Source of the DNA: Jatrophihabitans cynanchi
GTDB lineage: Bacteria > Actinomycetota > Actinomycetes > Mycobacteriales > Jatrophihabitantaceae
DNA: 64,000 nucleotides
NCBI RefSeq assembly: GCF_027247405.1
Contig: NZ_CP097463.1
Span: 3,162,001 to 3,226,000 of the forward strand
Direction: 5' to 3'
This document shows, piece after piece, positions 12,468 through 17,526 of the stretch (its first letter is position 1; each line of letters begins with the position of its first letter). The position numbers and the translations under genes were made by a program. Below the pieces are notes generated by a model. It ran no database searches, was not told where the DNA came from, and saw only the letters and a list, made by a program, of their open reading frames with translations.

Positions 12468-13259
12468 ATGTACGCGGTGCCGGGCTCGGGCTGGCCGGGC
12501 GATCTGGCCACGCCGCGCACCCCGGTGGCGGCCGACGCGGCGGACGTCGGTCGGCTGGCGGCCTCGGCCCGGGACCTGCGGCAACTGGATGCAAGGGTGA
12601 CCGTCTGCCGCGCCTGCCCGCGGCTGGTGGCCTGGCGCGAGCAGGTCGCCGACGTCAAGCGGCGCGCCTTCGCCGACGAGCCGTACTGGGGGCGTCCGGT
12701 GAGCGGGTTCGGGCCGCCCGACCCGCGGATCCTGATCCTGGGCCTCGCGCCCGCGGCACACGGGGCGAACCGCACCGGGCGGATGTTCACCGGCGACCGC
12801 AGCGGCGACTGGCTGTACGCCGCGCTGTACCGGGTCGGGCTGGCGAACCGCCCGACCGCCGTCTCGGCCGGCGACGGGCTGGAGCTGAACGGGGTGCGGA
12901 TCACCGCGCCGGTGCACTGCGCGCCGCCGGCGAACAAGCCGACCACGGTTGAGCGCGACACCTGCCGCGGCTGGCTGACCCGCGAGCTCGAACTGCTGTG
13001 GCCCGGCGTGCGCGCGGTCGTGGTGCTCGGCGCGTTCGGCTGGAACTCGCTGTGGCCGACGCTGCGTGCCTGCGGCATCGTCACCCCGGCGCGGGTGCCG
13101 CGCTTCGCGCACGGCGTCGAGGCGCAGGTCGACGGCCGGCTCGCGATAGGCAGCTACCACGTCAGCCAGCAGAACACCTTCACCGGCCGGCTGACCGAGC
13201 CGATGCTCGACGCGGTGCTGGCCCGGGCAGCCGATGCGGCGGGGCTGCCGGTTCGCTAG
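12468..13259 (+). CDS. udgB: Type 5 uracil-DNA glycosylase (UdgB)
   Basis: Family 5 uracil-DNA glycosylase, 263 aa; excises uracil and other deaminated bases from DNA. The active-site block [19 protein letters not shown] is characteristic of UdgB, which has Ala where other families have a catalytic Asp or Asn. The second motif is [11 protein letters not shown]. Cysteines in [18 protein letters not shown] and TCRGW suit the [4Fe-4S] cluster of the family. ATG at 12468 has only a weak GGCGGG upstream. High-G+C genomes are prone to C deamination, which fits. Confidence 0.93.
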
Positions 13260-13269
13260 CGTCGACGGT

Positions 13270-14601
13270 ATGACAGGGCAACCCGTACGGATCCTGATCG
13301 TCGGCGGCGGCTACGTCGGCATGTACACCGCGCTCGGCCTGCAGAAGAAGCTCTCCCGCGGGGCGGCCGAGATCACCCTCGTCGAGCCGCAGTCCAACAT
13401 GACCTACCAGCCGTTCCTGCCCGAGGCCGCGGCGGGCAGCGTCGAACCGCGGCACGTCGTCGTCCCGTTGCGCAAGGTGTTGCGGCACTGCACGGTGCTC
13501 AGCGGCGCGGTGACGAGGGTCGAGCACGCCGCCAAGCGGGTGACCGTCCAGCCGGTGCAGGGCGAGGCGTACCGACGCGACTACGACCTGCTCGTCATGT
13601 GCCCGGGCTCGATCTCGCGGCTGCTGCCCATCCCGGGGCTGGCCGAGAACGGCATCGGCTTCAAGACCATCGGCGAGGCGATCTACCTGCGCAACCACGT
13701 CCTGTCCCAGCTCGACCTCGCCGCCTCCACCGACGACCCCGAGCAGCGGCGCCGCGCGCTCACCTTCGTGTTCGTCGGCGGTGGTTACGCCGGCGTGGAG
13801 GCGATGGCCGAACTGGAGGACATGGCGCGGTACGCCACCCGCTACATCGACAACGTCGAGCCGTCCGACATGCGCTGGGTGCTGGTCGAGGCGGCCAGCC
13901 GGATCATGCCCGAGGTGTCCGTGCGGCTGTCGGCGTACACGGTCGACCGGCTCACCGAGCGCGCCATCGACGTCCGGCTCAACACCCGGCTGGAGTCGGC
14001 CGAAGGCGGCCGGATCGTGCTGTCCGACGGCGAGCAGTTCGACGCGGATACCCTGGTGTGGACGGCCGGGGTCAAGGCGAACCCGATATTGCAGCAGACC
14101 GATCTGCCGCTGGACGACAAGGGCCGGCTGCCCTGCGCGGCGAACCTGACCGTCAAGGGCGTCACCGGGGTGTTCGCCGCGGGCGACTGCGCCGCCGTCC
14201 CGGACCTGACCAAGGACGACCCCAACGCGCTGTGCGGGCCGAGCGCGCAACACGCGGTGCGGCAGGCGAAGACGCTCGCCGGCAACGTTGCGGCGGCCGT
14301 GCACGGCGGGACGTTGCGCGACTACCGGCACGCCTACGCCGGCTCGGTCGCCTCGCTCGGGCTGTATCGCGGCGTCGCGGAGGTCTACGGCATCAAGCTG
14401 CGCGGCTTCCCGGCGTGGTGGATGCACCGCACCTACCACGTGTCGCGGATGCCGACGTTCAACCGCAAGGTGCGGATCATCGCCGACTGGACCGGCGCGC
14501 TGCTGTTCCGCCGCGAGGTCGTCTCGCTCGGGCAGTTGCAGCGGCCGCGGACCGAGTTCGAGCAGGCGGCCGGCAAGCGCGAGTTGCCCGAGGTCTCCTG
14601 A
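13270..14601 (+). CDS. ndh: Type II NADH dehydrogenase
   Basis: Single-subunit, non-proton-pumping NADH:quinone oxidoreductase (443 aa) that feeds electrons to the menaquinone pool from the inner face of the membrane. FAD-binding GGGYVGMYTALGLQKK, quinone-site-type segment TYQPFLPEAAAGSVEPRHV, NADH-binding FVGGGYAGVEAMAELEDM, and the second FAD motif GVFAAGDCAAVPD are all present. The C-terminus (IKLRGFPAWWMHRTYHVSR) is the amphipathic membrane-binding part. ATG at 13270 lies 10 bases after the udgB stop. The stop codon is the first triplet of a family C repeat. Confidence 0.93.
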   Translation: MTGQPVRILIVGGGYVGMYTALGLQKKLSRGAAEITLVEPQSNMTYQPFLPEAAAGSVEPRHVVVPLRKVLRHCTVLSGAVTRVEHAAKRVTVQPVQGEAYRRDYDLLVMCPGSISRLLPIPGLAENGIGFKTIGEAIYLRNHVLSQLDLAASTDDPEQRRRALTFVFVGGGYAGVEAMAELEDMARYATRYIDNVEPSDMRWVLVEAASRIMPEVSVRLSAYTVDRLTERAIDVRLNTRLESAEGGRIVLSDGEQFDADTLVWTAGVKANPILQQTDLPLDDKGRLPCAANLTVKGVTGVFAAGDCAAVPDLTKDDPNALCGPSAQHAVRQAKTLAGNVAAAVHGGTLRDYRHAYAGSVASLGLYRGVAEVYGIKLRGFPAWWMHRTYHVSRMPTFNRKVRIIADWTGALLFRREVVSLGQLQRPRTEFEQAAGKRELPEVS

Positions 14602-14662: not shown

Positions 14663-14735
14663 GCCCCCGTAGCCCAATGGCAGAGGCAGACCCCTTAAAA
14701 GGGTCCCAGTGTCGGTTCGAGTCCGACCGGGGGTA
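14663..14735 (+). tRNA. tRNA with anticodon UAA, class I body
   Basis: Acceptor stem 14663-14669 pairs with 14728-14734 (G1:U72 wobble), discriminator A73 at 14735, no encoded CCA. The D arm begins GCCC at 14672. The anticodon stem GACCC/GGGTC (14689-14693 and 14701-14705) is perfect and holds loop CTTAAAA, giving anticodon TAA (14696-14698), which reads UUA leucine codons. T arm GTCGG-TTCGAGT-CCGAC (14711-14727). The variable region is only 5 bases, although bacterial tRNA-Leu normally has a long variable arm. It could be a true rare-leucine tRNA of unusual shape, a tRNA of other charging identity, or a non-functional relic. Confidence 0.8.
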
Positions 14736-14807
14736 CTCGCGGGACCGAACGACACGCCGACGGAACATGTGGTGCCGCCTGTTGTCAGAGCGTCCACATA
14801 TAGTGCT

Positions 14808-14987
14808 CAACGCAGCTGGTTCGCGCGTCCCGGCCAGGGGCGTGCGAGGCAACAGGGAACCCGGTGCGATACCGGGACTGCCCCGCAGCGGTGAGTGGGA
14901 ACGACAACCGTCCGCTTCGTGAAGACGAAGCGACAGCACTGGGATCCGGCCAGCCAGATCGGGCCCCGGGAAGCGACGGTCAGTAGG
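14808..14987 (+). promoter_or_regulatory. Cobalamin (B12) riboswitch
   Basis: The conserved core is clear: GGAACCCGGTGCGATACCGG near 14858, ACTGCCCCGCAGCGGTGAG near 14879, GGGAACGACAACCGTCC near 14896, CACTGGGATCCGG near 14937, and the B12 box GGGAAGCGACGGTCAGTAGG near 14969. It lies about 200 bases upstream of nrdA. A hairpin GCGCCCCGACCGGGGTGC near 15043-15060 may serve in the expression platform. In Streptomyces the same arrangement lets B12 repress the B12-independent reductase. Confidence 0.93.
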
Positions 14988-15186
14988 TGATCGGGTGCGT
15001 GCACCTGATCGTGCCCGCGAGTCCGAAGACCTGCCAGCGCGCTGCGCCCCGACCGGGGTGCAGTGGTCCGAGGCTCCGTGGGAGAGCCGACGGCACGTGC
15101 GGCGGGAGCACCTACTCTCCGGCCCGGCGACCGCCCCCTCCCCGCAGCCTCGGACCTTCGGACCGAGCTCGCGAGGAGAGAGCCAG

Positions 15187-17526
15187 ATGACGGTCACCGA
15201 CACCCCACCCCCGACCCGGCGCACGACGATGCAGGTGCGCAAGCGCAACGGCGACACCGAGGACGTCGACGTCAACAAGATCGTCCGCGCGGTCGAGCGC
15301 TGGGCGGGCGAGTTGGACGAGGTCGACCCGCTGCGCGTGGCCACCAAGACGATCAGCGGCCTGTACGACGGCGCCACCACGTCCGAGCTGGACCGGCTCT
15401 CGATCCGGACGGCGGCGGAGATGATCGGCGAGGAGCCGCAGTACTCCCGGCTCGCCGCCCGCTTGCTGGCCGGTTACCTCGACAAGGAGGTACGCGGTCA
15501 GGGCATCGCGTCGTTCAGCCAGGCGATCGCGCTCGGGCACGCCGAGGGCCTGATCGGCGACGAGACCGCCGGCTTCGTCAAGGACAACGCGCGCAAGCTC
15601 GACTTCGCCGTCGACCACCGCGCCGATCTGCGCTTCGAGTACTTCGGGCTGCGGACCGTGTACGACCGCTACCTGCTGCGGCACCCGAGCAGCCGGCTGG
15701 TGATCGAGACGCCGCAGTACTTCCTGCTGCGCGTCTCTTGCGGCCTGTCACACACGCCGGCCGAGGCGATCGACTTCTACCGGCTGATGTCCTCGCTCGC
15801 ATACCTGCCGTCCAGCCCGACGCTGTTCAACTCCGGAACGCGGCACACCCAGATGTCCTCGTGCTACCTGCTCGACTCCCCGCGCGACGAGCTGGACTCC
15901 ATCTACGAGCGCTACCAGCAGGTCGCCCGGCTGTCCAAGTTCGCCGGCGGGATCGGCATCTCGTGGTCCCGGGTGCGGTCGCGCGGCGCGCTGATCCGCG
16001 GCACCAACGGCGAGTCCAACGGCATCGTGCCCTGGCTGCGCACGCTGGACTCGTCGGTCGCCGCCGTCAACCAGGGCGGCCGGCGCAAGGGCGCGGCGTG
16101 CGTCTACCTCGAGCCGTGGCACCCGGACGTCGAGGAGTTCCTCGCGCTGCGCGACAACACCGGCGAGGACGCCCGCCGCACGCACAACCTGAACCTGGCC
16201 AACTGGATCCCGGACGAGTTCATGCGCCGCGTCGAGGCCGACGAGGCCTGGTCGCTGATGGACCCGGACGCCGTGCCCGAGCTGCCCGACCTGTGGGGCG
16301 AGGCGTTCGACGCGGCGTACCGCGCCGCCGAGGCGGACGGCCGGTACGTGCGGCAGGTGCCGGCACGCGAGCTGTTCGGCCGGATGATGCGCACGCTGGC
16401 GCAGACCGGCAACGGGTGGATGTGCTTCAAGGACGCCGCCAACGCACGCTGCAACCAGAGTGCCGACCCGGCGAACGTCGTGCACCTGTCCAACCTGTGC
16501 ACCGAGATCATCGAGGTCAGTTCGGACGCCGAGACCGCGGTGTGCAACCTCGGCTCGGTCAACCTGGCGCAGCATCTGACCGGCGACGCGGTCGACTGGG
16601 ACAAGCTGCGCGCGACCGTGCGCACCGCCGTCCCGTTCCTGGACCGGGTGATCGACACCAACTACTACCCGAGTGCCGAGGCGGCGGCGTCCAACCCGCG
16701 CTGGCGGCCGGTCGGGCTCGGCGTGATGGGACTGCAGGACGTCTTCTTCGCGCTGCGCCTGCCGTTCGACTCCGCGGCCGCGCGCGAGCTGTCCACCCGG
16801 ATCGCCGAGGAGATCTACCTGACGGCGCTGGAGACGTCAGCCGGGCTGGCCGAGCAGTTCGGCCCGCACCCCGCGTTCGCCGCGACGCGTGCCGCCGACG
16901 GGCAGCTGCAACCGGACCTGTGGGGCGTGCCGCCGACCCAGACGCAGCGATGGGCCGAACTGCGCGCGCGGGTCGCGCGGACCGGGCTGCGCAATTCGCT
17001 GCTGATCGCGATCGCCCCCACCGCGACGATCGCGTCGATCGCCGGCTGCTACGAGTGCATCGAGCCGCAGGTGTCCAACCTGTTCAAACGCGAGACGCTG
17101 TCCGGGGAGTTCCTGCAGCTCAACGGCGCGCTCGTGCGCGAGCTCAAGCGGCTGGGGCTGTGGACCGTGCAGACGCGTGATGCGATCAAGCGCGCGGACG
17201 GCTCGGTGCAGGGCATCGCCGAGCTCCCCGCCGAGACGCGCGAGCTGTTCCGCACCGCGTGGGAGTTGCCGCAACGCGCCCTGATCGACCTGGCCGCCGC
17301 GCGGGCGCCGTACGTCGACCAGAGCCAGTCGCTGAACCTGTTCATGGCCGCGCCGTCGATCGGCAAGCTCAGCTCGATGTACCTGTATGCGTGGCAGGCC
17401 GGGCTGAAGTCGACCTACTACCTGCGCTCGCGCCCGGCCACCCGCATCGCGCAGGCGACCGTGACCGACCAGGCGGCGATCGCCTGCAGCCTGGAGAACC
17501 CCGAGAGCTGCGAGGCGTGCCAGTGA
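15187..17526 (+). CDS. nrdA: Class I ribonucleotide reductase, alpha subunit
   Basis: Catalytic subunit (779 aa) reducing ribonucleoside diphosphates to deoxy forms. The N-terminal ATP-cone (about residues 15-105, MQVRKRNGDTEDVDVNKIV) provides dATP feedback. The barrel has substrate cysteine SSCYLLDSP, the radical-site block NLCTEIIEVS (Asn, Cys, Glu), and APTATIASI. The C-terminal tail ESCEACQ carries the redox pair. It is not class II NrdJ: a beta subunit gene overlaps its stop. ATG at 15187 is preceded by GGAGAG. Upstream residues in the same frame fall in the riboswitch leader and are not coding. Confidence 0.96.
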   Translation: MTVTDTPPPTRRTTMQVRKRNGDTEDVDVNKIVRAVERWAGELDEVDPLRVATKTISGLYDGATTSELDRLSIRTAAEMIGEEPQYSRLAARLLAGYLDKEVRGQGIASFSQAIALGHAEGLIGDETAGFVKDNARKLDFAVDHRADLRFEYFGLRTVYDRYLLRHPSSRLVIETPQYFLLRVSCGLSHTPAEAIDFYRLMSSLAYLPSSPTLFNSGTRHTQMSSCYLLDSPRDELDSIYERYQQVARLSKFAGGIGISWSRVRSRGALIRGTNGESNGIVPWLRTLDSSVAAVNQGGRRKGAACVYLEPWHPDVEEFLALRDNTGEDARRTHNLNLANWIPDEFMRRVEADEAWSLMDPDAVPELPDLWGEAFDAAYRAAEADGRYVRQVPARELFGRMMRTLAQTGNGWMCFKDAANARCNQSADPANVVHLSNLCTEIIEVSSDAETAVCNLGSVNLAQHLTGDAVDWDKLRATVRTAVPFLDRVIDTNYYPSAEAAASNPRWRPVGLGVMGLQDVFFALRLPFDSAAARELSTRIAEEIYLTALETSAGLAEQFGPHPAFAATRAADGQLQPDLWGVPPTQTQRWAELRARVARTGLRNSLLIAIAPTATIASIAGCYECIEPQVSNLFKRETLSGEFLQLNGALVRELKRLGLWTVQTRDAIKRADGSVQGIAELPAETRELFRTAWELPQRALIDLAAARAPYVDQSQSLNLFMAAPSIGKLSSMYLYAWQAGLKSTYYLRSRPATRIAQATVTDQAAIACSLENPESCEACQ

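Follow-up and report, generated by a model that had tools for sequence, protein, structure and literature searches.

Our analysis of a 64,000-nucleotide stretch of the Jatrophihabitans cynanchi chromosome (the window) identified a tRNA-Leu(UAA) gene devoid of a long variable arm. This tRNA is very probably the sole decoder of UUA in the cell, would be leucylated by the single ordinary leucyl-tRNA synthetase (LeuRS) and belongs to a widespread short-armed type of leucine tRNA. The gene itself, its uniqueness, its conservation, the signature shared with other leucine tRNAs, the presence of one LeuRS and the reading of TTA as leucine in a relative support this conclusion, and from these we infer expression, charging and the basis of recognition. 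The gene is ordinary among its relatives, yet it contradicts the published rule, stated in an excerpt of a review (PMC9976931), that leucine tRNAs outside animal mitochondria carry a long arm.

ARAGORN called a tRNA-Leu(taa) at 14663-14736, and the Rfam tRNA model gave 54.7 bits (gathering score 29) over the positions shown in Table 1. The cloverleaf is complete, with the anticodon UAA and a variable region of 5 nt (CCAGT). The acceptor stem, GCCCCCG/CGGGGGT, includes G1.U72, the D-region is GCCCAATGGCAGAGGC, with a D-stem of three pairs and a C13.A22 mismatch, the anticodon arm is GACCC-CTTAAAA-GGGTC and the T-arm is GTCGG-TTCGAGT-CCGAC. The discriminator is A73 and CCA is not encoded. Allo-tRNAs combine an 8/4 or 9/3 acceptor/T-stem with a long arm; unlike them, the window tRNA has ordinary 7/5 stems and a short arm. 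The preliminary description of a clean UAA-anticodon tRNA with a 5-nt variable region is thus confirmed by ARAGORN, by Rfam and by the conserved relatives described below. A scan for promoters and terminators around the gene returned no match (0.0 and 0.3 expected). The upstream gene matched Pyr_redox_2 over the cut-off (146.1 bits) and NDH2_C just below it (24.8 bits, cut-off 27.7), while all its NCBIfam matches were sub-cut-off; the name ndh is a putative one.

Table 1. Position of the tRNA gene and of its neighbours in the window
Feature	Coordinates	Strand	Basis and remarks
tRNA-Leu(UAA)	14663..14735	+	ARAGORN and Rfam tRNA model
ndh-like pyridine-nucleotide oxidoreductase (type II NADH dehydrogenase-like)	13234..14601	+	Pfam Pyr_redox_2
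Cobalamin riboswitch	14799..15052	+	Rfam; 63 nt 3' of the tRNA, in front of nrdA
nrdA, ribonucleotide reductase alpha subunit	15187..17526	+	Start codon picked by eye within ORF 14995-17526

The complete genome, a single contig of 4,515,412 bases, was searched with the Rfam tRNA model, which found 45 tRNAs above the cut-off; the next candidate, at 22.3 bits, fell short of the cut-off of 29. The second, class II tRNA-Leu(UAA) that the preliminary description had envisaged elsewhere in the genome was looked for, and no other UAA tRNA, class II or otherwise, is present among all 45. The short arm extends beyond the single UAA tRNA first noticed: three of the five leucine isoacceptors (UAA, CAA and UAG) have a variable region of 5 nt, the long arm being confined to CAG and GAG, with 15 and 17 nt. 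All five, and none of the 40 other tRNAs, combine A14A15, an unpaired 13.22, U48 and A73. As A73, A14A15 and U48 together with the string GGNAG are also found in tRNA-Ala(UGC) and in both tRNA-Lys, it is the addition of the 13.22 mismatch that makes the signature leucine-only. This mismatch is C13.A22 in the short-armed and G13.A22 in the long-armed leucine tRNAs of the genome, and among its 35 non-leucine short-armed tRNAs the 13-22 pair is missing only in tRNA-Cys. The LeuRS determinants listed as essential for E. coli in the consulted part of a review (A73, A15-U48, G18G19 and A20a) are all present in the window tRNA, A20a according to our own numbering of the D-loop. The window tRNA shares a variable region of 4-5 nt with ordinary class I tRNAs, but not their four-pair D-stem, as 13-22 is unpaired. 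Given the signature and the unpaired 13.22, a leucine tRNA that has lost its arm would fit better than a class I tRNA with an altered anticodon. The anticodon alone is insufficient to establish identity, since a human short-armed gene with a Leu(CAA) anticodon resembles tRNA-Met, according to an excerpt of the tRNAscan-SE 2.0 paper (PMC8450103).

The rarity of UUA, also claimed from the sequence at the outset, holds: TTA accounts for 2 of the 18,432 codons of the window (55 mechanically picked ORFs). This rarity and the short arm are what could be expected if UUA had been reassigned and the tRNA, its body being of class I, were charged with another amino acid, as the preliminary description had considered. 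We regard this as very unlikely. The meaning of the codon was examined in a relative, Actinobacteria bacterium IMCC26103, whose genome is complete (sample GC 46%) and in which the UAA pattern matched two short-armed genes and zero long-armed ones. TTA is the commonest leucine codon of this organism (2086 of 87,755 codons in a 300-kb sample, or 23.8 per 1000). When its TTA codons were masked as X and compared with homologues, leucine was found in 64.6% of 1291 cells and outnumbered every other residue at 150 of the 225 TTA sites. The other five leucine codons gave 63.8-72.6% leucine, as compared with 16.2% for ATT and 18.6% for TTT. Because TTA aligns like the other leucine codons and only the short type was found, these alignments indicate that UUA is read as leucine by the short-armed tRNA in IMCC26103. 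A signature common to the long-armed leucine tRNAs and present in no other tRNA of the J. cynanchi genome, together with the one LeuRS found, also argues against reassignment. With regard to J. cynanchi itself, twenty 20-kb stretches and the window provided 7 aligned TTA sites, 5 of which were dropped, as they lie in ORFs that have no Pfam match and were judged to be shadow frames. At the two usable sites, codon 504 of 508 in lysS aligns with leucine in one homologue, and leuS codon 956, which would favour reassignment, aligns in the homologues shown with valine (7 of 8) or isoleucine (1 of 8). This own-genome test, with two sites, is weak, and the meaning of UUA in J. cynanchi as leucine is suggested by carrying over the result from IMCC26103. 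The leuS gene (L463:10471-13467) holds a single TTA, codon 956, so that charging of the tRNA that decodes this codon would depend on the leuS product itself.

The tRNA is also too well conserved to be readily taken for a relic, another of the original suggestions, or for a pseudo-tRNA in a cell whose UUA codons are read by something else. The few UUA codons in need of a reader and the G1.U72 in place of a Watson-Crick pair could speak for such decay, which we nevertheless consider highly improbable. The complete genome has no other UAA tRNA, and its own lysS and leuS contain TTA. Across 178 distinct cellular short UAA tRNAs, 3545 of the 3560 cells of 20 stem pairs were paired (99.6%, a value partly built in, as the parser demanded that most pairs be formed), while in 200 shuffles of the 3' letters the paired share averaged 79.8% and never exceeded 81.0%. 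Stronger evidence comes from the variety of pair types: most acceptor, anticodon and T-stem pairs occur in several types among the 178 tRNAs, which reflects compensatory changes. G1.U72 itself is present in 31 of these sequences, our own included, and every other stem pair forms in at least 168. The 13.22 position is C.A in all 178, with the D-loop string fixed by the search pattern for the 119 named loci. Since the 30 best loci are all UAA and short-armed and the 178 relatives keep the cloverleaf with compensatory changes, its form appears to be more than chance.

In 36 of 148 loci (14 of 29 relatives and 22 of the 119 named loci listed), an ndh-like gene precedes the tRNA on the same strand at a distance of no more than 400 nt, and this kept neighbour likewise disagrees with a relic. 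In the remaining 112 loci, which extend over 1.5-8 kb, ndh is further off or was not seen. The ndh-tRNA loci span Pseudonocardiaceae, Geodermatophilaceae, Streptosporangiaceae, Micrococcaceae and Microbacteriaceae. A regulatory or otherwise non-translational tRNA-like RNA, for instance one tied to the downstream cobalamin riboswitch and nrdA, is just as improbable as a relic: the tRNA does lie 63 nt ahead of that riboswitch, but it is the upstream neighbour that relatives keep, and around the tRNA in 20 relatives' loci (up to 1.5 kb on either side) no riboswitch was found, all 19 matches being tRNAs, so a link between tRNA and riboswitch as shared context was rejected. A bldA-like slow-decoding switch may nevertheless exist on top of translation.

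The preliminary description assumed that bacterial leucine tRNAs carry a long arm, a premise that fails as a general one, while its proposal of an unusual leucine isoacceptor is supported. A BLAST search with the window tRNA gave a match in 84 of 101 genomes (own included), and the 30 best loci (own and 29 relatives) all have the anticodon UAA and variable regions of 5-6 nt. As a bldA-like query mixed UAA genes with other leucine tRNAs, anticodon-to-T-loop patterns were used instead. Among 28 hand-picked genomes of the order, most of them devoid of a match in the BLAST search, 25 had one UAA string, 7 short and 18 long as classed by the matched string, and none had both. A class sample of 118 evenly drawn genomes, own included, gave 90 matches to the first pattern, of which 73 + 2 were read and 15 second or chance-like matches in multi-match genomes were set aside (one of them, in G474, was read later). 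Reading of the cloverleaf gave 59 short (5-6 nt), 6 long and 3 intermediate tRNAs, the latter (L479, L480 and L522) having variable regions of 7, 8 and 9 nt, lengths that fall between those of class I and class II. A second pattern added 13 short and 19 long genomes, 29 of these 32 being typed by the matched string and 3 short ones being confirmed with ARAGORN. In total, 100 genomes were typed, comprising 72 short, 3 intermediate and 25 long, and 18 of the 118 were left untyped. In family f91 of this sample, neither UAA pattern found a tRNA-Leu(UAA), and the gene is either deviant or absent there.

All 11 members of one large genus in the class sample (f18/g51, probably Streptomyces, to judge from its size and bldA-like sequence) are long-armed for UAA. 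Their tRNA-Leu(CAA), read in seven genomes (L539-L545), is short in G123, G200, G248 and G385 and long in G219, G365 and G257. The UAG strings among the matches listed are mostly long, with short ones in the window's genome, G408, G410 and G421. The short UAA tRNA occurs in at least 119 stretches, among whose named carriers are Mycolicibacterium, Nocardia, Rhodococcus, Gordonia, Corynebacterium, Microbacterium, Arthrobacter, Nocardioides and Streptosporangium. A few metagenome-assembled genomes (MAGs) of Planctomycetota, Rokuibacteriota, Deltaproteobacteria and Acidobacteria were also among the matches listed; these matches in other phyla may be contamination. Short and long UAA strings occurred together in 2 of 16 genomes followed, the Rokuibacteriota MAG G395 and the cyanobacterial MAG G393, whose short copy sits in a tRNA array.

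We have filed the window tRNA as a short-armed variant of bacterial tRNA-Leu(UAA) rather than as a canonical member, because the long variable arm is absent. It shares with canonical class II tRNA-Leu, including the bldA type, the anticodon, A73, A14, A15-U48, G18G19 and a 13.22 that is usually unpaired. Like bldA-type tRNAs, it is a single-copy reader of a rare codon and the only UUA-reading tRNA found in the genome. In contrast, 25 distinct long-armed UAA tRNAs have variable regions of 13-17 nt and, in 14 cases, G13.A22 instead of C13.A22; the acceptor stem is also different. According to an excerpt of the aforementioned review (PMC9976931), metazoan mitochondrial tRNA-Leu(UUR) is likewise a UUA/UUG leucine tRNA that has no long arm; the window tRNA, however, is bacterial and chromosomal, has strong intact stems and coexists with long-armed leucine tRNAs in the same cell. 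One explicit short-armed leucine tRNA of actinobacteria is described in the consulted part of PMC6582537: in Mycobacterium mucogenicum and its relatives, a tRNA-Leu(TAG) whose variable loop is short is encoded in a tRNA cluster. There it is additional to a normal long-armed gene, whereas ours is the only UAA gene found and occupies a chromosomal site common to relatives. Passages of PMC11541572 name tRNALeu-2, 3 and 5 of M. tuberculosis as having a long variable loop, so by implication leucine tRNAs 1 and 4 could be short-armed, and a tree legend in PMC2474678, also seen as an excerpt, mentions several Sec, Ser, Tyr and Leu tRNAs with short arms. No recognisable general account of short-armed leucine tRNAs in Actinomycetota emerged from the literature searched; tacit knowledge, unpublished or held in tRNA databases, may exist.

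A single LeuRS gene scored above the TIGR00396 cut-off in each of 15 genomes, among them carriers of either UAA class. In the reading that we favour, the UUA codons of the cell would be decoded solely by the short-armed tRNA, to which the single ordinary LeuRS would attach leucine. The enzyme would recognise features that the cell's long-armed leucine tRNAs have as well, namely the discriminator A73, A14, the A15-U48 Levitt pair, G18G19 and a D-stem of three pairs in which 13.22 is mismatched, and the long arm would be dispensable. Another review, which in the part consulted (PMC7916415) presents the variable arm as the major determinant for LeuRS, counts against this reading. The molecule looks like an essential leucine tRNA for UUA, and its short-armed type is common in Actinomycetota. 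If such tRNAs are charged with leucine, the long-arm rule does not hold in a large group of bacteria (including the Mycolicibacterium, Nocardia and Corynebacterium loci), and short-armed leucine genes may be mislabelled by isotype classifiers that rely on the arm. Such genomes would also be natural experiments on what bacterial LeuRS needs, as one enzyme serves both classes in a cell and related genomes differ in class at the same locus.

The canonical class II tRNA-Leu(UAA) may indeed occupy the same site: in 11 genomes a long-armed UAA tRNA lies 66-424 nt behind ndh. A tree of 63 ndh proteins whose genes have the tRNA within 1.7 kb (52 short, 11 long), built by a quick method that includes no bootstrap, requires at least 4 changes of class, of which 2 are forced by well-supported branches, while shuffles need 10.4 changes on average. 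Within one family, the tRNA behind ndh is long in G410 and short in G421, with a pairing support of 94 against the tool's mark of 95. The class thus appears to have switched at one locus. Because the short and long bodies differ throughout, acceptor stem included, replacement or gene conversion seems likelier than bare deletion of the arm; an ancestral gene pair at the ndh site with differential losses may also have existed. It is conceivable, though rather doubtful, that leucine tRNA class is a freely switching bacterial trait, in which short-armed copies pass between phages or arrays and chromosomes and have repeatedly taken the place of, or given way to, long-armed actinobacterial UAA/CAA genes at the same site, as LeuRS would read only the elbow and A73.

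At least 120 stretches of viral contigs match the pattern, whose fixed D-loop and anticodon-loop strings are constant by construction in these as in the genome scans, and ARAGORN reads 121 UAA tRNAs there, all shorter than 80 nt. Phage and chromosomal copies are mostly not close (median nearest identity 84%), and two near-identical pairs may represent prophage borders. In the array-like loci of Moorena (L142), a cyanobacterial MAG (L169) and a Pyrinomonadaceae MAG (L165), all leucine tRNAs read are 74-78 nt long; L165 and L169 also contain Ser and Tyr tRNAs, which measure 83-85 nt. The short leucine tRNAs GAG and TAG of L169 have a D-arm resembling that of long-armed leucine tRNAs, as would be expected if arm loss happened more than once.

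Three further observations concern the surroundings of UAA genes. L577 (G474:C15:59000-72500) contains a second copy of the 3' half of tRNA-Leu(UAA), some 11.6 kb away from the intact gene, a pattern such as would be left by an element integrating into this tRNA. The two UAA genes of IMCC26103 (L296, G386:C1:70001-90000) lie about 12.9 kb apart; they share the 3' half, beginning at the anticodon loop, but differ in the 5' half, and one of them has a mismatched acceptor; the pair is perhaps an integration scar able to swap half a tRNA. Finally, in four loci from MAGs of other phyla (L084, L087, L102 and L151), a tRNA-Cys, accompanied in L087 by a tRNA-Gly, is followed by the short tRNA-Leu(UAA), which we take to be the same order as glyW-cysT-leuZ of E. 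coli, where leuZ is presumably long-armed.
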